From: Methanobacteriota archaeon
GTDB lineage: Archaea > Thermoplasmatota > DTKX01 > VGTL01
Direction of reading: 5' to 3'
Length of the DNA: 52,492 bases
Assembly: GCA_016874675.1 (NCBI GenBank)
Contig: VGTL01000012.1
Location: forward strand, 1 to 52,492
Positions 28,888 through 51,728 of this stretch are shown piece after piece. A program made the translations under genes and the position numbers. The stretch's first letter is position 1. Every line of letters starts with the position of its first letter. A model generated the notes under the pieces. The model had not been told where the DNA came from. It searched no databases and saw only the letters and a program-made list of their open reading frames with translations.

Positions 28888-29313
28888 ATGCTCGTGAAGG
28901 ACCTGGAGCTGGCCCAGAAGTACCGGAGGATACCGGCCACGGCGACCGCGGCCGAGGCCATCGCGCTCATGGCCGAGTACCACATCCCGGTGATACTCGT
29001 CGAGAAGGGGTCGGAGGGCGACACCTACGGCGTCCTCACGCGGCGGGACATGATATCCAAGGTCATCGCCGAGGGCCTCGACCCGACCAAGGTGACCGTG
29101 ACGGAGCTCGCCTCCAAGCCCCTGATGGTCCTCAACAACAACGAGGTCGATGTCATCTGGGTCGCCCGTTTCATGGCCCGCGAGAACGTCTCCACGCTGG
29201 CGCTCTTCGACGGCGGGGAGTTCAAGGGCTTCGTGACCGACGCCGATGTCCTGAGGGCCCTGGCGGCGCCGCTCAGGGCGGAGTTCGGCCACCACGGGGG
29301 GCACCGGAGATGA
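28888..29313 (+). CDS. CBS-domain pair protein
   Basis: 141 residues forming one Bateman module: CBS 1 (KYRRIPATATAAEAIALMAEY, IPVILVEKGSEGDTYGVLT, RRDMISKVIAEG) and CBS 2 (LASKPLMVLNNNEVDVIWVA, VSTLALFDGGEFKGFVTDAD). CBS pairs usually bind adenine nucleotides and act as energy sensors for a partner protein. A ggaggtgaaagg ribosome-binding site lies just before ATG 28888. It overlaps the second CBS gene by 4 bases. Its place inside the Hdr operon suggests control of, or assembly with, an Hdr complex. Confidence 0.8.
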   Translation: MLVKDLELAQKYRRIPATATAAEAIALMAEYHIPVILVEKGSEGDTYGVLTRRDMISKVIAEGLDPTKVTVTELASKPLMVLNNNEVDVIWVARFMARENVSTLALFDGGEFKGFVTDADVLRALAAPLRAEFGHHGGHRR

Positions 29314-29744
29314 TACCGCTCCAGAACGCCGTGAAGAAGTTCAAGCTCAACACCGTGGAGCCGGAGGCCACCGCGGCCGAGGCGCTCGTCCGGCTTGTGG
29401 AGCACGACTTCATACCGCTGCTGGTACCCCGCAAGGACCGGACGGACGCCTACGGTATCGTGACCAAGCACGACATCCTGAGCAAGGTCGTGGCCGAGGG
29501 CCGGGACCCGAGGAAGGTCAAGGTCTCGGAGATAATGGCCAAGCCCCTGATAATCGTCAACGACCTGTCGATGGACCTGCGGTGGGCCTCGAGGATGATG
29601 CACCGCTGCGGCATCGCGGCGCTGGCGGTGCTCGACAAGGGCGAGTTCTACGGCTTCATAACCGACAGGTGCATCATCGAGGAGTACTTCGACGAGCTGC
29701 GCCGGGACAAGCTCGACAGGAGCGGGGAGATGCTGTCGTGCTGA
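29310..29744 (+). CDS. Second CBS-domain pair protein
   Basis: 144 residues with the same layout as the preceding gene: CBS 1 (TVEPEATAAEALVRLVEHDF, YGIVTKHDILSKVVAEGRDP) and CBS 2 (IMAKPLIIVNDLSMDLRWAS, GIAALAVLDKGEFYGFITDR). The two proteins share the (R/K)(R/H)D(M/I)(I/L)SKV(I/V)AEG(L/R)DP segment, so they are tandem paralogues and could form a heterodimeric Bateman disc. Translationally coupled by a 4-base overlap. Ligand not predictable. Confidence 0.8.
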   Translation: MIPLQNAVKKFKLNTVEPEATAAEALVRLVEHDFIPLLVPRKDRTDAYGIVTKHDILSKVVAEGRDPRKVKVSEIMAKPLIIVNDLSMDLRWASRMMHRCGIAALAVLDKGEFYGFITDRCIIEEYFDELRRDKLDRSGEMLSC

Positions 29745-29797: not shown

Positions 29798-31588
29798 GTG
29801 GGCAAGGGGCGCGTCGGGGTGTACCTTTGCACCTGCCGCGGCGAGATAGCCAAGCACATCGACCTCGACCGGCTGGCCGCCGGGCTCTCGGAGGACCCGG
29901 CCGTGGCGTTCGTCAGGGTGGACCAGGAGCTCTGCGGCCCGGCGGGCCAGGACGTGCTGCGCGCAAGCCACGGGGAGGGCCGCTCCGACCGGGTGGTGGC
30001 CGGCGCCTGCACGCCCAACATACAGGGGCTCATCATGCGCGCCGCCCTGGAGGGCGCCGGGCTCAACAAGTACCTCTACGAGCAGGTGAACATCCGGGAG
30101 CTCTGCGCCTGGGTGCACGACGACCGGGAGGCGGCCACCGACAAGGCGCTCCGCCTCATGCGCGCCGCGATAGCCCGCGCCCTGATGCTCGAGGCGCTCG
30201 ACGACATCGAGCTCAAGGTGGTGCCCGAATCGCTCGTGATAGGCGGCGGCGTGGCCGGCATGCAGGCGGCGCTGGAGATAGCCACCCGGGGCTTCCTTGC
30301 CCATATAGTGGAGCGCACCGGGGCGCTGGGCGGCCGGGCGTACAGGCTGAGCGTCACGTTCCCGACCCACAACTGCGGCATCTGCTGCATGCAGTACTGC
30401 CGGGAGTGCGTGCTCACGCCGAAGATCGAGGACGTGATGCAGAACCCGAAAATCAAGGTCCACCTCAACACCCGGATAGAGAAAATAGATGGAGGGTTCG
30501 GCGACCGGCTGGTGACGCTCGAGGGCCCCGGCGGCAGGGAGGAGCTCCGGGTCGGCACGATAGTGGTCGCCACCGGCTCCGACGTGTTCGACGCCCGGCG
30601 CATCCCGGAGTACGGCTTCGGCGTCTTCAGGGACGTCGTCACCACGATGGATCTCGAGCGCATGCTCGAGCAGGAGCGCGAGATAGGCGGCAGGTTCGTC
30701 CGGCCCTCAGACGGGAGGACGATGCCAAGGACCGTGAACTTCATCCAGTGCGTGGGCTCCCGCGACCGCGTCAAGGGGAACCTGCACTGCTCTCTCGTGT
30801 GCTGCACCTACGCCATCGGCCAGGCGCGCGAGATAAAGAAGCTCCACCCGGAGGTCGAGGTGTACATCCACTACATCGATCTTCGGGGCCCCTACCGCGG
30901 CTTCGAGGAGCACTGCGAGCAGGCCAAGGCCGAGGGCGTGGTGTTCGTGCGCGGCCGGGTCGCCGAGGTCTCAGAGAAGAAGGGCCGGGTCCGCATCCGC
31001 TTCGAGGACACCGACCTGGGCAAGCAGATAGACATGGCCACGGACCTCGTGGTGCTCGCGGTCGGACAGGAGCCGGCCGCAGAGTCCGAGCGCATAGCGA
31101 AGCTTTTGCACCTCCAGCTGGACGAGGACAGGTTCATCAAGGACCTCAATCCCAACTTCCCCTCGGAGTACCGCCGGGGGGTGTTCGTGGCGGGCTGCGC
31201 CGAGGGCCCCAAGGGCATAAGGTACTCCATCGAGGACGCCAAGTCGGCCGCCGCCGCGGCCGCCGATCTCATGGCCGCCGGCAAGATCCACAAGACGCGT
31301 GCGATTGCGGTGGTGGACGAGACGCGCTGCCGCGGCTGCGGCCGGTGCGAGGAGGCCTGCGAGTACCACGCCGCCAGGGTGGTGGAGAAGGACGGGCGCC
31401 TGGTCTCGGTGCGCGACGAGGCGCGCTGCGAGGGCTGCGGCGTCTGCGCGGCCCAGTGCTGCAACCGCGCCATCACCATCAAGCACCACACCCGGCCCCA
31501 GATGGAGGCGCTGATGAGGAGGGTGCTGGGAACGAAGGGGCGGGGGGCAGGGGGCAAGGGGCAAGGGGCGCAAGGGGAGGTGGGCTGA
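29798..31588 (+). CDS. HdrA-like flavoprotein with altered cysteine motif
   Basis: 596 residues. It has the N-terminal Cys domain in a variant form (GVYLCTCRGEIAKHI, GACTPNIQGLI), the FAD motif SLVIGGGVAGMQAALEI and a C-terminal two-cluster ferredoxin region (CRGCGRCEEACEYHA, CEGCGVCAAQCCNRAI), but no inserted ferredoxin. Where other HdrA proteins read DCxxCxxAPK, this one reads NCGICCMQYCRECVLTPK, with C193, C196, C197, C201 and C204. The two prolines that normally follow the ferredoxin cysteines are Glu and Cys. The last 20 residues (GTKGRGAGGKGQGAQGEVG) come from a repeat arm. The start is GTG 29798. Probably partners the MvhD and HdrCB proteins downstream. Confidence 0.8.
   Translation: MGKGRVGVYLCTCRGEIAKHIDLDRLAAGLSEDPAVAFVRVDQELCGPAGQDVLRASHGEGRSDRVVAGACTPNIQGLIMRAALEGAGLNKYLYEQVNIRELCAWVHDDREAATDKALRLMRAAIARALMLEALDDIELKVVPESLVIGGGVAGMQAALEIATRGFLAHIVERTGALGGRAYRLSVTFPTHNCGICCMQYCRECVLTPKIEDVMQNPKIKVHLNTRIEKIDGGFGDRLVTLEGPGGREELRVGTIVVATGSDVFDARRIPEYGFGVFRDVVTTMDLERMLEQEREIGGRFVRPSDGRTMPRTVNFIQCVGSRDRVKGNLHCSLVCCTYAIGQAREIKKLHPEVEVYIHYIDLRGPYRGFEEHCEQAKAEGVVFVRGRVAEVSEKKGRVRIRFEDTDLGKQIDMATDLVVLAVGQEPAAESERIAKLLHLQLDEDRFIKDLNPNFPSEYRRGVFVAGCAEGPKGIRYSIEDAKSAAAAAADLMAAGKIHKTRAIAVVDETRCRGCGRCEEACEYHAARVVEKDGRLVSVRDEARCEGCGVCAAQCCNRAITIKHHTRPQMEALMRRVLGTKGRGAGGKGQGAQGEVG
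31533..31582 (+). repeat. Single repeat arm forming the 3' end of the HdrA-like gene
   Basis: acgaaggggcggggggcagg then gggcaaggggcaaggggcgc: G-rich words of the ggggcaa/ggcgcaa type, without a right arm. It encodes the low-complexity C-terminal tail of the HdrA-like protein. Confidence 0.6.
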
Positions 31589-32086
31589 GTGGGCCAGACG
31601 GGTTCGCCCGGGGATGATGGCGGAAGGGGGCCGGGCCCGGGGCCCGGCCCCTTCGAGCCCTCCATCATCGCCTTCACCTGCGCCTGGTGCGGGTACCCGT
31701 CGGCGGTGCTCGCCGGCGTGAACCGGATAGAGTACCCCCCGGGCGTGAACATAGTGCGCGTCATGTGCACCGGCATGATAGAGCCGGCGTACGTCATGCG
31801 CGCGCTGGAGTACGGCGCCGACGGGGTGATAATCGTCGGGTGCCTCATGGAGAACTGCCACTACATGGTCGGCAACAAGCGCGCCCAGGAGCGGGCGGAC
31901 ATGCTCCGGCCCCTCCTGGACATGATGGGCCTTCGCGCCGCCCGTCTGCGGACGGAGTGGATAAACGCCTCCGAGCGGGTGAGGTTCGCCGCCGCGATGA
32001 GGGACTTCTCGGCGGCGCTCAGGGAGCTTGGGCCCAACCCGCTGGGCCGCTGCGGGGAGGGCGACGGCGGGGAGGCGGGGCCGTGA
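31589..32086 (+). CDS. mvhD: MvhD-type [2Fe-2S] subunit (variant)
   Basis: 165 residues. MvhD passes electrons into HdrA; its four cysteines bind a [2Fe-2S] cluster. Here they are C31/C34 (CAWC), the cysteine of MCTGM (about 63) and GCLMENCHY (about 92 and 97). Other copies read GCHxGDCHY at the last site, so this is the most divergent copy. A Gly/Pro linker (GPGPGPGPFEPS) follows the start and is encoded by a perfect 12-1-12 GC inverted repeat (31627-31651). GTG 31589 directly follows the previous stop. Overlaps the next gene by 4 bases. Confidence 0.85.
   Translation: MGQTGSPGDDGGRGPGPGPGPFEPSIIAFTCAWCGYPSAVLAGVNRIEYPPGVNIVRVMCTGMIEPAYVMRALEYGADGVIIVGCLMENCHYMVGNKRAQERADMLRPLLDMMGLRAARLRTEWINASERVRFAAAMRDFSAALRELGPNPLGRCGEGDGGEAGP
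31627..31651. repeat. Perfect 12-1-12 GC inverted repeat in mvhD
   Basis: ggggccgggccc-g-gggcccggcccc. It encodes part of the Gly/Pro linker of MvhD near its start codon and could form a very stable hairpin in the mRNA. Confidence 0.8.
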
Positions 32087-33255
32087 GCGAGAAGGTCATC
32101 AGGCGCATCATCCAGGACACCCACGCCTTCGACTGCGTGGAGTGCGGCAAATGCACCTCGGTGTGCCCGATGACCCGCCACAAGAAGGACTTCGCCCCGC
32201 GGCTCATCGTGGTCAAGTCGATGGATTCCCCGTCGGTGGAGAAGCTGGCCCGCGAGCGCGATCTTTGGGCCTGCACCACCTGCGGCCAGTGCGCCTCGAT
32301 GTGCCCCTACAAGGTCGACTACACCGAGTTCATCCGGGCGCTGCGGGCGGAGGGGGCGATGCTGGACGTCACGCCGGACTGCTCCCAGGGCGGCCTGCTC
32401 CACTCGATGATGCGCGTGATGGCCAAGGGCGACCTGGAGCAGGACCGGCTGGGCTGGGCGAAGCCGCCCCTCGAGGTGGCCGAGAAGGGCGACATCTACC
32501 ATTTCACCGGGTGCTCCCGGCACATGGCCCAGGTGTTCGTCGGGCGGCAGGGCATCGACATCGGCTCGGTGCCGGAGAGCGCCGTGCGGATAATGAACGC
32601 CGCGGGCGTGGTGCCGGCCGTCAGCAAAAGCGAGGTCTGCTGCGGCCACGACCTCAACTGGGTGGGCGACGAGGACAACTTCGCCCGCCTGGTGGACAGG
32701 AACGTGGCCGCGATATCGGCCACGGGCGCCAGGACGGTGGTCTTCACCTGCCCCGAGGGGCTGCGCACCTTCTCGAAGGACTACCCGCTGGTCGCCGAGG
32801 GGGAGCTGCCGTTCAAGGCCGTCCACATTTCGGAGCTGATGGTCCAGTGGATAAAGGAGGGCAAGCTCCGGTTCAGGGAAACCACGGGGAAGGTGACCTA
32901 CCACGACGCCTGCCGGCTGGGCCGCCACATGGGCGTGTACGACCCGCCCCGCGAGGTCCTCAAGGCCATCCCCGGCCTGGAGCTTGCCGAGATGGAGAAC
33001 ATCCGGGAAAAATGCCTCTGCTGCGGGGTGTCGGGCTGGATATCGTGCGACGCCGACACGAAGCTCCTGCAGATGGACAAGCTCATGGAGGCCAAGCGCA
33101 CGGGGGCCGACACGATGCTCACGTTCTGCCCCAAGTGCCAGCTGCATCTCCACTGCGCCCAGGCCGACAAGGTTCCCGTCGACAGGGCGCTGATCGACAT
33201 CCCGGTGAACGACTTCACCGTGTTCGTAGCCAACCGCCTGGAGGAGAAGGGGTGA
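32083..33255 (+). CDS. HdrC-HdrB fusion (HdrD-like) with one CCG ligand missing
   Basis: 390 residues. The N-terminal HdrC part has C18-VE-C21-GK-C24-TSV-C28-P and C64-TT-C67-GQ-C70-ASM-C74-P. The HdrB part has two CCG domains. Domain 2 is complete (DACRLGRH, CLCCGVSGW, FCPKCQLH). Domain 1 has GCSRHM and VCCGHDLNW, but its last motif reads TCPEGLRTF (C223, G226), where the two sister fusions have CPEC and CAEC. One cluster ligand is therefore lost. No membrane helix, so a soluble complex. GTG 32083 overlaps the previous stop. Confidence 0.85.
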   Translation: MSEKVIRRIIQDTHAFDCVECGKCTSVCPMTRHKKDFAPRLIVVKSMDSPSVEKLARERDLWACTTCGQCASMCPYKVDYTEFIRALRAEGAMLDVTPDCSQGGLLHSMMRVMAKGDLEQDRLGWAKPPLEVAEKGDIYHFTGCSRHMAQVFVGRQGIDIGSVPESAVRIMNAAGVVPAVSKSEVCCGHDLNWVGDEDNFARLVDRNVAAISATGARTVVFTCPEGLRTFSKDYPLVAEGELPFKAVHISELMVQWIKEGKLRFRETTGKVTYHDACRLGRHMGVYDPPREVLKAIPGLELAEMENIREKCLCCGVSGWISCDADTKLLQMDKLMEAKRTGADTMLTFCPKCQLHLHCAQADKVPVDRALIDIPVNDFTVFVANRLEEKG

Positions 33256-47904: not shown

Positions 47905-48678
47905 ATGGCGGACTTCGAGCCGAGGATACTGGGCTTCCTTTGCAACTGGTGCAGCTATGCCGGCGCCGACCTCGCCGGCGTCAGCCGCATGCAGTACCCG
48001 ACCAACCTCCGCGTGGTCCGGGTGATGTGCTCCGGGCGCGTGGACCCGGTCGTGGTGGCGGACACGCTGCTCAAGGGGCTTGACGGCGTCATCGTCACGG
48101 GCTGCCACATTAACGACTGCCACTACATCAGCGGCAACTTCCACACCCAAAAGCGGATGCAGCTCCTCATCGAGCTCATCGACCAGACGCCGATGCGCGG
48201 CCGCGTCCGGCTCGAGTGGGTGTCGGCGTCCGAGGGCACCCGCTTCGCCGCCGTCATGAAGGACTTCACCGACACGATCAGGGCGCTGGGGCCGACGCCG
48301 CTGGGGACGGACCAGGCGGCCCGGACCGCCCTGCTTGCCGTGCGCGACACCTTCTCCAGCCCGCACCTGCGCAACGTGATGGGCAAGTACTTCCACCTGA
48401 CCGAGAGGGGCACCGTGTACGGCTGGAAGCTCGAGCCGGCGCGCATGGAGAAGGCGCTGCGCGAGGTTCTGCGCGCCGAGCACGCCCGGGCGCTCATCAT
48501 CCACAACGCCGGCACCGCGCCGGTGACCGTGCCCCGGCTGGCCGAGCTCACCCGGATACCGGCCGCCGAGATAGTGCGGCACCTGTCGGTCATGATGAAG
48601 CAGTCGAAGGTCTCGCTGGCCGGCCACGACGGGGCGGACCCGCTGTTCCAGGTGGCCCCGGGCGCGGGGGTGGGCTGA
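47905..48678 (+). CDS. MvhD fused to a winged-helix domain
   Basis: 257 residues. Residues 1-140 are a canonical MvhD (CNWCSYAGADLAGVSRM, VMCSGRVDP, GCHINDCHYISGN). The remaining 110 residues form a helical/winged-helix extension: HLRNVMGKYFHLTERGTVYG, a helix ending REVLRAEHARALIIH, then the helix-turn-helix-like VPRLAELTRIPAAEIVRHLS and VMMKQSKVSL. The extension aligns by eye with the stand-alone winged-helix protein at the head of the array (24748). ATG 47905 is preceded by ggtgat at the right distance. It could be a protein-binding rather than DNA-binding wing. Its stop overlaps the next start. Confidence 0.8.
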   Translation: MADFEPRILGFLCNWCSYAGADLAGVSRMQYPTNLRVVRVMCSGRVDPVVVADTLLKGLDGVIVTGCHINDCHYISGNFHTQKRMQLLIELIDQTPMRGRVRLEWVSASEGTRFAAVMKDFTDTIRALGPTPLGTDQAARTALLAVRDTFSSPHLRNVMGKYFHLTERGTVYGWKLEPARMEKALREVLRAEHARALIIHNAGTAPVTVPRLAELTRIPAAEIVRHLSVMMKQSKVSLAGHDGADPLFQVAPGAGVG

Positions 48679-51600
48679 TGGCGGCAGCGGACAAGGTGGG
48701 CGCCGTCCTCATAATAGGCGGCGGGATATCCGGGATGCAGGCCTCGCTCGATCTGGCGGACTCCGGCTTCAAGGTGTACCTGCTCGACAACAAGCCCTCG
48801 ATAGGCGGCGTAATGGCCTCTCTGGACAAGACGTTCCCCACGAACGACTGCTCGATGTGCATAATGGCGCCCAAGCTCGTCGGGGTGGGCCGCCACCACA
48901 ACATTACGATACTGTCCTACTCGTACATCGTCGATGTCGAGGGGACCGCCGGCAACTTCAGGGTCGGGGTGGCCCGCCAGCCCCGCAGGGTCGACCCGGC
49001 CAGGTGCACCGGCTGCGGCACCTGCGCCCAGGAGTGCCCTGTGGAGGCCATAGACGAGTACAACGAGGGCCTGACCGAGCGCAAGGCCATCTCCGTGCGC
49101 TATCCCCAGTCGGTGCCCCTCCTCTACTCGATAGACCCGAACAAGTGCATCGGCTGCGGCAGCTGCGAGAACGCCTGCAAGGCCCACGCCGTGGTGTACG
49201 AACAGAAGGAGCTGGAGCAGGTTGTCGACGTCGGCTCGATAATCATGGCCTCGGGCTTCGAGCCCTACATGCCACCGCCGAACAACGAGTACGGCTACGG
49301 CGTGTACAAGAACGTGGTCACCAGCATGGAGTTCGAGCGCATCCTGAGCGCCACGGGGCCGTTCGCCGGCCACGTCCTGCGGCCTTCCGACGGCAAGATA
49401 CCGAGGAAGGTGGCGTTCATCCAGTGCGTCGGCAGCCGGGACCAGCGCTCGAACGTGTTCTGCTGCTCCGTGGGCTGCATGTACTCCACCAAGGAGGCGA
49501 TAATCGCCCAGGAGCACGCCCCCGGCCTGAAGGCCACGATATTCTTCATGGACATGCGGGCCTTCGGCAAGGAGTTCGACTACTACTACAAGCGGGCGCA
49601 GGAGGAGTACGGCATCACCTACATCCGCTCCCGCGTCCCGACGGTGACGGAGCTGCCGGACACCGGGCTTAGGATAAAATACGAGTCCGAGACCGGGGAG
49701 ATGAAGTCCGAGGACTTCGACCTCGTGGTGCTGGCGGTGGGCCTGTCCCCGTCCAAGGAGGTGTACCTCTTGGCCAAGAAGCTCGGGGTGAAGCTCAACG
49801 AGCACGGCTTCGCCGCCTCGTCCCCGTTCACGCCGCTCCAGACCAACGTGCCCGGGATATTCGTGAGCGGCGCGGTGGTGTCCCCCAAGGACATCCCCGA
49901 CACAGTGGCGCAGGGGAGCGGCGCCGCGGCATTGGCGGCGTCCACCGTCGCCTCGGTCCGGGGGACGCTCGCCCAGCCCAAGCAGTACCCGCCCGAGATG
50001 GACGTTGCGGGCCAGGAGCCGCGCATCGGCGTGTTCGTGTGCCACTGCGGCATCAACATCGGCGGCGTGGTCAGCGTCCCGGAGGTCATGGAGTACGCCA
50101 AGACCCTGCCCAACGTCGTGTTCGCCGACCAGAACCTCTACACCTGCTCCGACGACACCCAGAAGAGGATACGCGAGAAGATCAAGGAGCACAACCTCAA
50201 CCGCGTCATCGTGGCCTCCTGCACGCCCCGCACGCACGAGCCCCTCTTCATGGACACCTGCCGCGAGGCCGGGCTGAACCCCTATCTGTTCGAGATGGCC
50301 AACATCCGGGACCAGTGCTCCTGGGTGCACATGCAGATACCCAAGAAGGCGACGAAGAAGGCAAAGGACCTCGTGCGCATGGCGGTCGCAAAGGCCCGCG
50401 CCCACGAGCCGCTGCAGAAGGGCTCGCTCCCGATGAAGCAGTCCGCCGTCGTGATAGGCGGCGGGGTGGCGGGCATGACCGCGGCGCTCAATTTGGCCGA
50501 GCAGGGCTTCCCGGTGGACCTGGTCGAGCGGGAGGCGGAGCTCGGGGGCAACCTGAGGCACATACACTACCTGTTCAGCGACCGGGACGACCCGCAATCG
50601 ACCCTGCGCTCCCTGGTGGAGAATGTGAAGGGCCAAAAGAAGATCAAGGTGCACCTGAAGTCGGATTTGAAGTCCATCGAGGGCTTCATCGGGAACTACA
50701 AGTCGGTCATCGTCCCCGCCGCCGACCTCGCCAAGGAGGGCGCCGCGGGATCGACCGTCGAGCACGGCGTGGTGGTCGTGGCGACCGGCGCCAACGAGTA
50801 CATCCCCGAGGAGTACTCCTACGGGAAGCACGCGGGCATCATGACCCAGAGGCAGCTCGAGGAGAAGCTCGCCTCCGGCAAGTTCTCGGCCAAGAACGTG
50901 GTCATGATACAGTGCGTGGGCTCGCGGGACGAAAAGACCCCCACCTGCTGCCGCATAGGCTGCGGCCAGGCGGTCAAGAACGCGCTGCGCCTGAAGGAGC
51001 TTGCGCCCGCGACCAACGTCTACGTGCTTTACAAGGACATCCGGACCTACGGCCTCAACGAGGAGGTCTACCGCAAGGCCGGGGCGGCGGGCGTGGTGTT
51101 TTTGCGCTGGGACGACGCGCGCAAGCCCGAGGTGGCGGTGGACAAGGGCATCCGCGTCAGAGTGAAGGACTTCCTGCTGGGCAAGGACGTGGACATCCCG
51201 GCGGACGCCCTGGTCCTGACGGCCGGCGTGCGGCCCCAGCCGGACAACGGCCGCCTGTCGGAGCTTCTCAAGGTGCCCCTCAACCGGGACAAGTTCTTTT
51301 TGGAGGCACACATGAAGCTTCGGCCGGTGGACTTCGCCACCGAGGGGGTCTACCTCGCCGGCATGGCCCACAGCCCCAAGTTCCTGGACGAATCGATATC
51401 GCAGGCCTACGGCGCGGCCGCCCGCGCCTCCACCGTGCTCTCCAAGGACACGCTGGACATAGAGCCCATGATCTCCAAGGTCATCGACGAGAACTGCGAC
51501 GGCTGCGCCTACTGCATCGACCCGTGCCCGTACAAGGCCATAACGCTCGTCGAGTACCAAAAGGACGGCCAGACGAAAAAGACGGTCAAGGTGAACGAGG

Positions 51601-51728
51601 CGCTGTGCAAGGGCTGCGGCTGCTGCATGGCCACCTGCCCCAAGAAGGGCATCTACATAAAGAGGTTCAAGCTGGAGCAGCTGGGGGCCATGGTGGACGC
51701 CGCCCTCGAGTCACCGGAGGTGGAATAG
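48678..51728 (+). CDS. Double HdrA: A1 half fused to A2 half
   Basis: 1,016 residues, the second fused copy. A1: VLIIGGGISGMQASLDL, Cys motif NDCSMCIMAPKL, inserted ferredoxin CTGCGTCAQECPVEAI and CIGCGSCENACKAHAV. A2 begins near residue 450 (RIGVFVCHCGINIGGVV), with AVVIGGGVAGMTAALNL and a C-terminal ferredoxin CDGCAYCIDPCPYKAI and CKGCGCCMATCPKKGI. It carries no repeat hairpin, so compared with the copy at 33686 it shows the uninterrupted form of the A2 domain (there IVPAADLAKEG fills the loop). ATG 48678 overlaps the previous stop (tgatg). MvhD follows immediately. Confidence 0.88.
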   Translation: MAAADKVGAVLIIGGGISGMQASLDLADSGFKVYLLDNKPSIGGVMASLDKTFPTNDCSMCIMAPKLVGVGRHHNITILSYSYIVDVEGTAGNFRVGVARQPRRVDPARCTGCGTCAQECPVEAIDEYNEGLTERKAISVRYPQSVPLLYSIDPNKCIGCGSCENACKAHAVVYEQKELEQVVDVGSIIMASGFEPYMPPPNNEYGYGVYKNVVTSMEFERILSATGPFAGHVLRPSDGKIPRKVAFIQCVGSRDQRSNVFCCSVGCMYSTKEAIIAQEHAPGLKATIFFMDMRAFGKEFDYYYKRAQEEYGITYIRSRVPTVTELPDTGLRIKYESETGEMKSEDFDLVVLAVGLSPSKEVYLLAKKLGVKLNEHGFAASSPFTPLQTNVPGIFVSGAVVSPKDIPDTVAQGSGAAALAASTVASVRGTLAQPKQYPPEMDVAGQEPRIGVFVCHCGINIGGVVSVPEVMEYAKTLPNVVFADQNLYTCSDDTQKRIREKIKEHNLNRVIVASCTPRTHEPLFMDTCREAGLNPYLFEMANIRDQCSWVHMQIPKKATKKAKDLVRMAVAKARAHEPLQKGSLPMKQSAVVIGGGVAGMTAALNLAEQGFPVDLVEREAELGGNLRHIHYLFSDRDDPQSTLRSLVENVKGQKKIKVHLKSDLKSIEGFIGNYKSVIVPAADLAKEGAAGSTVEHGVVVVATGANEYIPEEYSYGKHAGIMTQRQLEEKLASGKFSAKNVVMIQCVGSRDEKTPTCCRIGCGQAVKNALRLKELAPATNVYVLYKDIRTYGLNEEVYRKAGAAGVVFLRWDDARKPEVAVDKGIRVRVKDFLLGKDVDIPADALVLTAGVRPQPDNGRLSELLKVPLNRDKFFLEAHMKLRPVDFATEGVYLAGMAHSPKFLDESISQAYGAAARASTVLSKDTLDIEPMISKVIDENCDGCAYCIDPCPYKAITLVEYQKDGQTKKTVKVNEALCKGCGCCMATCPKKGIYIKRFKLEQLGAMVDAALESPEVE

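Follow-up and report, generated by a model that had tools for sequence, protein, structure and literature searches.

Introduction

The HdrA subunits of the HdrABC-MvhAGD complexes from Methanothermococcus (PDB 5odc) and Methanospirillum hungatei (7bkb) represent the closest described systems for the protein analysed here, with which they have the fold, an N-terminal domain, and an FAD domain in common. Both types also possess a proximal C-x12-C-x3-CC motif, a C-terminal domain with two [4Fe-4S] clusters, and an MvhD partner. Where they have CxxC, the present protein has a five-cysteine loop; it also lacks the inserted ferredoxin, has glycine at the position of Lys409, and is paired with an HdrD-type partner in place of HdrB and HdrC. 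Lys409 lies 3.4 Å from N5 of the FAD (PMC10734219) and is conserved among HdrA homologues (PMC6405883). Together with E356, it has been proposed to tell bifurcating from non-bifurcating HdrA (PMC12054007). The gap between the flavin and the arm of HdrA exceeds 30 Å in the crystal (PMC6019823) and measures 20–25 Å by cryo-EM (PMC12350162), and neither report settles how electrons cross these 20–30 Å separating MvhD from the HdrA flavin (PMC6019823, PMC12350162).

Further HdrA paralogues are found in ANME archaea and Syntrophoarchaeum, in MetFV-HdrA-MvhD clusters of the kind in which some members of the present subfamily sit. This cluster type has already been noted, with no mention of a five-cysteine loop or a lysine-to-glycine change in the part of the source considered (PMC9012536). 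The same source describes HdrA5/12 classes with an N-terminal domain and no cysteines at all in the Cys197 loop. The copies of HdrA5/12 type examined here resemble the present protein in having the N-terminal domain and C-terminal ferredoxin and in lacking the inserted ferredoxin, but unlike it they keep Lys409. The sHdrA of Hyphomicrobium (6tjr) has the thioredoxin-reductase-like FAD core in common, but is devoid of the N- and C-terminal domains.

The HdrA-like protein and its domains

The window, i.e. the whole stretch of 52,492 nucleotides analysed here, is contig VGTL01000012.1 of a Methanobacteriota archaeon (Thermoplasmatota in GTDB). The product of the gene at 29798-31588 is HdrA-like according to its matches to NCBIfam HdrA2 (522 bits) and PDB 5odc_A (E=1.6e-117), and carries a thioredoxin-reductase-like FAD domain at residues 146-291 (Pfam Pyr_redox_2, E=7e-13). 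It falls short of the curated NCBIfam cut-offs for HdrA2 (1100 bits) as well as HdrA (399 of 1400 bits). Its sequence places it in a monophyletic HdrA subfamily, named HdrA-5C here. Its features are as follows.

29798..31588, + strand: HdrA-like flavoprotein of the five-cysteine subfamily, 596 aa, GTG start
29828..30010, + strand: cysteines of the N-terminal domain cluster, C11, C13, C46, and C71, all present in the window copy (alignment; role from PMC9012536)
30239..30259, + strand: FAD-binding GGGVAGM (GxGxxG) of the thioredoxin-reductase-like domain (Pfam Pyr_redox_2)
30374..30409, + strand: five-cysteine loop CGICCMQYCREC, C193/C196/C197/C201/C204, replacing the canonical CxxC with Cys197 (alignment)
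30749..30805, + strand: intact flavin-proximal [4Fe-4S] motif C-x12-C-x3-CC, C318, C331, C335, and C336 (alignment)
30818..30820, + strand: Gly341 at the position of Lys409, the flavin N5 lysine of M. thermolithotrophicus HdrA (alignment; PMC10734219, PMC6405883)
31328..31459, + strand: C-terminal ferredoxin domain with two [4Fe-4S], C511-C554, prolines changed to E522 and C555 (Pfam, alignment)

A preliminary description of this DNA had reported that CGICCMQYCREC stands in place of the usual DCxxCxxAPK cysteine motif. This is borne out by the translation of the 596-aa reading frame, where it occupies residues 193-204, and by the paralogues: among the ten HdrA flavin modules of the window, five have a canonical loop (DCAICVLAPK, DCAMCILAPK, DCSICILAPK twice, and DCSMCIMAPK), four have no loop cysteine, and one has the five-cysteine loop. 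The same description held that the inserted ferredoxin was missing, and the span from GxGxxG to CVGSR agrees with this, being 161-173 aa in five-cysteine proteins versus 237-247 aa in CxxC copies. The window copy thus lacks the inserted ferredoxin with its two [4Fe-4S] clusters, its span being shorter by about 75 aa; this domain is also absent from other types of HdrA. Moreover, both prolines of the terminal ferredoxin are indeed changed (CxxCxxCxxxC-E and CxxCxxCxxxC-C instead of CP). As a signal, this change was discarded and is ordinary variation, since position 555 is Cys in 30 of 46 members and Pro in the other 16, and an ordinary HdrA paralogue of the window also reads CC. In three members (L060, L090, L041), C547 of the C-terminal ferredoxin is replaced by Asp, which suggests an altered or lost second cluster.

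Distribution and conservation of the five-cysteine loop

The DNA pattern C-G-[hydrophobic]-C-C-x3-C-x2-C-x-[hydrophobic]-x-P was searched in the genomes of 84,980 species and matched 35 stretches. Thirty of them come from HdrA genes whose motif is in register with that of the window copy, the hosts being Thermoplasmatota, Methanophagales, MAGs labelled Methanosarcinales, and Candidatus Syntrophoarchaeum; the other five (L038, L043, L051, L055, L056) are unrelated and not HdrA. The proportion of true HdrA genes, together with conservation, rules out a chance motif or a frame error. Additionally, protein searches independent of the motif were run on 390 sampled genomes of the phylum to which the window belongs, 11 of which have members, and on 295 from the phylum with the Methanophagales record, where 5 do. 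All of these bear the five-cysteine loop or its four-cysteine counterpart CG[IF]PCRHDCP[DE]C, the latter in a tandem second copy. The window's genome itself encodes a second five-cysteine HdrA on another contig (CKPDGCCMHYCREC, 47% identity to the window copy), and yields 36 matches to the 29798-31588 query, mostly HdrA-like. The family search proposed in the preliminary description therefore recovered a subfamily signature across several archaeal groups. Tandem pairs of a 5C and a 4C (Cys-to-Pro) HdrA are a feature of ANME-1-like archaea and Syntrophoarchaeum (L054, L065, L066, L118).

The loop amounts to the Cys197 loop plus 8-10 residues (8 in the window copy, 10 in the CKPDGCC variant), giving C1-x(2,4)-C2-C3-x3-C4-x2-C5. 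The spacing C3-x3-C4-x2-C5 is that of the radical-SAM CX3CX2C cluster motif. In the alignment of 49 members, C193, C197, C201, and C204 are invariant (49/49) and position 196 is a cysteine in 44 sequences and a proline in 5, leaving four strictly conserved, ligand-capable loop cysteines in the arrangement C-x(3,5)-C-x3-C-x2-C. Some of the 49 were gathered by the pattern demanding all five cysteines and were thus preselected, so that the weight rests on the roughly 20 pattern-free members, in which the same four are invariant. A functionless loop, arising from neutral lineage-specific expansion or from assembly artefact, might be suspected from the small number of genomes, most of them MAGs. 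Such a reading has next to no probability, as the cysteines are invariant in proteins that share only 38-75% identity with the window copy and recur in many independent assemblies of Thermoplasmatota, ANME-1-like archaea, and Syntrophoarchaeum. The preliminary description had also considered that the motif might prove common and bind the same cluster as in HdrA. It is uncommon, and a literature search, mostly of papers open without subscription, returned no description of it. The five-cysteine HdrA proteins are apparently a conserved and undescribed branch.

Which site is altered

In methanogen HdrA, we take the flavin-proximal cluster to be bound by C386-x12-C399-x3-C403-C404 (numbering from the 5odc alignment). 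The corresponding motif C318/C331/C335/C336 is kept in 49/49 HdrA-5C members. The second cysteine of the canonical DCSIC aligns with residue 197 of 5odc, and Cys197 of one HdrA serves as a ligand to the cluster in the N-terminal domain of its dimer partner (PMC9012536). Hence, the altered motif is an inter-subunit loop and not the proximal cluster, and the Cys197 loop, providing a ligand in trans, does not make up an intrinsic cluster-binding motif of its own. The preliminary description had placed a different cluster type or ligand set next to the flavin. What stands of this proposal is a conserved, distinctive change and a flavin environment that differs (Gly for Lys409); what falls is replacement of the proximal cluster, which was rejected in view of the intact C-x12-C-x3-CC. 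A swap of the usual flavin-adjacent cluster for another type or ligand set could draw on the changed flavin environment, but with its motif intact in every member and the alteration sitting in the Cys197 trans-ligand loop (PMC9012536), it is very improbable.

C204 aligns with Cys197 through a shared [IV]L.PK context, in an alignment that is ambiguous around the insertion, and it is likely the equivalent of Cys197. The insertion is absent from all solved HdrA chains among the alignments listed; in one chain, 9sfi, the residue aligned with Cys197 is non-standard (X). An AlphaFold2 model of the 29798-31588 protein, built from 56 sequences, reached a pLDDT of 89.7 overall and below 50 at residues 194-198. 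HdrA structures occupy all the top places in a Foldseek search with it (5odc_A, E=2.3e-63, TM 0.81; 7bkb_A, TM 0.87). A canonical paralogue used as control was equally low at residues 184-194, so the model permits no conclusion on cluster geometry in the loop.

The alignment of C204 lends itself to a sparing explanation, in which C204 alone serves as trans ligand like Cys197 and the extra cysteines are structural, whether they bind Zn, form a disulfide, or hold a [2Fe-2S] or [3Fe-4S] cluster of minor redox role. Most members retain the cysteines of the N-terminal cluster, as this explanation would have it. However, five members (L028, L064, L071, L074, L075) have lost C13, C46, and C71 together and retain the whole five-cysteine loop; the joint loss itself fits these three as ligands of the N-terminal cluster besides Cys197. 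Furthermore, a two-gene form exists in which a 360-aa 5C protein (L109), devoid of N- or C-terminal domain, retains the loop and the glycine and adjoins a protein (L100) with both terminal domains. These five members and the split form argue that the loop does more than supply a ligand in trans within a homodimer. The spacing also suits an Fe-S cluster better than a Zn ribbon, and the replacement of lysine by Gly at the flavin, in concert with the loop, points to a redox role, leaving C204 as sole functional ligand a quite unlikely option. That the five-cysteine loop holds a metal cluster of some kind is a good deal more probable than not. We propose that C1, C3, C4, and C5 would ligate an extra [4Fe-4S] cluster, with C2 auxiliary, and that this cluster would be sited at the interface of the flavin and the partner subunit.

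The flavin site

The residue at the Lys409 position, Gly341, is glycine in 49/49 members and Lys in 7/7 non-members of the same alignment. Among 63 HdrA modules scanned, all 30 motif-bearing ones have Gly; of the other 33, 32 have Lys and one has Asn. The glycine, which the preliminary description does not mention, is the best evidence, at sequence level, of an altered flavin site. The novel feature as read from the alignments is the coupled change of loop and lysine, not a replaced proximal cluster. E356, near the flavin, is kept in the 29798-31588 protein, its LERM aligning with LERM of 5odc, and no experiment in the literature searched shows HdrA ceasing to bifurcate when Lys409 is lost.

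Since presence of the loop coincides with loss of Lys409, the flavin is probably no longer a standard bifurcating site and is perhaps non-bifurcating. The full account, in which a loop with an extra [4Fe-4S] cluster combines with a flavin that has ceased to be the standard bifurcating one, has in our estimate a probability of roughly 0.5. Alternatively, the putative loop [4Fe-4S] might replace the inserted ferredoxin as the low-potential exit to free ferredoxin or a partner, with bifurcation continuing and another residue acting for Lys409. The kept E356 speaks for this, as do the loss of the inserted ferredoxin in all members that gained loop cysteines and a low-potential path of HdrA that runs via the Cys197-ligated cluster (PMC9012536). 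It is nevertheless rather unlikely, because Lys409 is replaced by Gly in 49/49 members, HdrA types with neither the inserted ferredoxin nor the loop retain the lysine, and no gene for a ferredoxin partner is conserved beside HdrA-5C in the neighbourhoods compared.

Evolution of the loop and the lysine

A tree of the flavin domain was built with residue 341 and the motif columns excluded. It unites the 5C/4C proteins in a single clade with support of 100/100, in which two proteins with Lys and no loop (L100, L101) are nested (97/92 and 99/96). Grouping the loop-bearing proteins without L100 and L101 is mildly rejected (AU p=0.028). The loop and residue 341 change together both times that they change on the tree (2/2; sign test p=0.5), so the coupling rests on two evolutionary events, a number with which significance is impossible. 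The two nested proteins have companions of the same clade: in genome G397, the short 360-aa five-cysteine HdrA (L109) lies beside the loop-less HdrA with Lys409 (L100), and G395 holds a comparable pair (L101, L108) at separate places.

Gene neighbourhood and possible role

The genes flanking that of the HdrA-like protein are listed below.

28888..29313, + strand: CBS-domain protein a, conserved upstream neighbour (Pfam CBS)
29310..29744, + strand: CBS-domain protein b, conserved upstream neighbour (Pfam CBS)
31589..32086, + strand: MvhD-like [2Fe-2S] protein, directly downstream (Pfam FlpD, 150 bits)
32080..33255, + strand: HdrD-like protein with two [4Fe-4S] and two CCG domains (Pfam CCG), fused to MvhD in many relatives

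The commonest order in Thermoplasmatota is CBS-CBS-HdrA5C-MvhD::HdrD, and several of these genomes have no other hdr genes within the stretch examined. The window encodes MvhD and HdrD unfused, each by its own gene, within a run of hdr genes extending to the contig end. This run (25170-52175) comprises the ten HdrA flavin modules, two fused double HdrA being included in this number, and several MvhD, HdrD, and HdrB/C genes. ANME-1-like archaea and Syntrophoarchaeum have the order MetV-MetF-HdrA-(FrhB-like)-5C-4C-MvhD-HdrA-MvhD, with L118 and L119 holding the 5C/4C pair inside the MetVF-HdrA-MvhD cluster. MCR alpha (McrA) was searched in the window's genome, which is 94% complete, and was not detected. 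The physiological disulfide substrate is thus unlikely to be linked to methanogenesis.

With these partners, the HdrA-5C complex may act as a more direct electron conduit from MvhD, or from an F420-dependent module, to HdrD, and the loop cluster may shorten the flavin-to-arm gap of HdrA. A tentative extension, which we hold well short of even odds, is that the loop site over the flavin would be an additional type of iron-sulfur site for HdrA and would hard-wire the 20–30 Å gap between the mobile MvhD or terminal arm and the flavin, turning a bifurcating HdrA into a non-bifurcating or differently bifurcating one that is used by Thermoplasmatota without MCR as well as by ANME-1-like archaea. A natural subfamily with a likely cluster at the gap and no lysine at flavin N5 offers a direct test of what determines bifurcation by HdrA. 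Moreover, an HdrA annotation in uncultured archaea cannot simply be read as bifurcation.

Some further variation was observed around these genes. The HdrD-like partner at 32080-33255 has CPEG for CPEC in its first CCG domain and thereby lost one cysteine; CPEG is common to the L116, L120, and L122 copies and not to most fused MvhD-HdrD relatives. In two MAG chromosomes (L114, L115), a divergent CoA-binding/CoA-ligase gene adjoins the CBS-CBS-HdrA5C operon. Additionally, both halves of the fused HdrA at 48216-51728 carry CCxxGC (FCCSVGC and TCCRIGC) instead of CSxxCC, so that the two neighbouring cysteines sit at a different place in the flavin-proximal motif.
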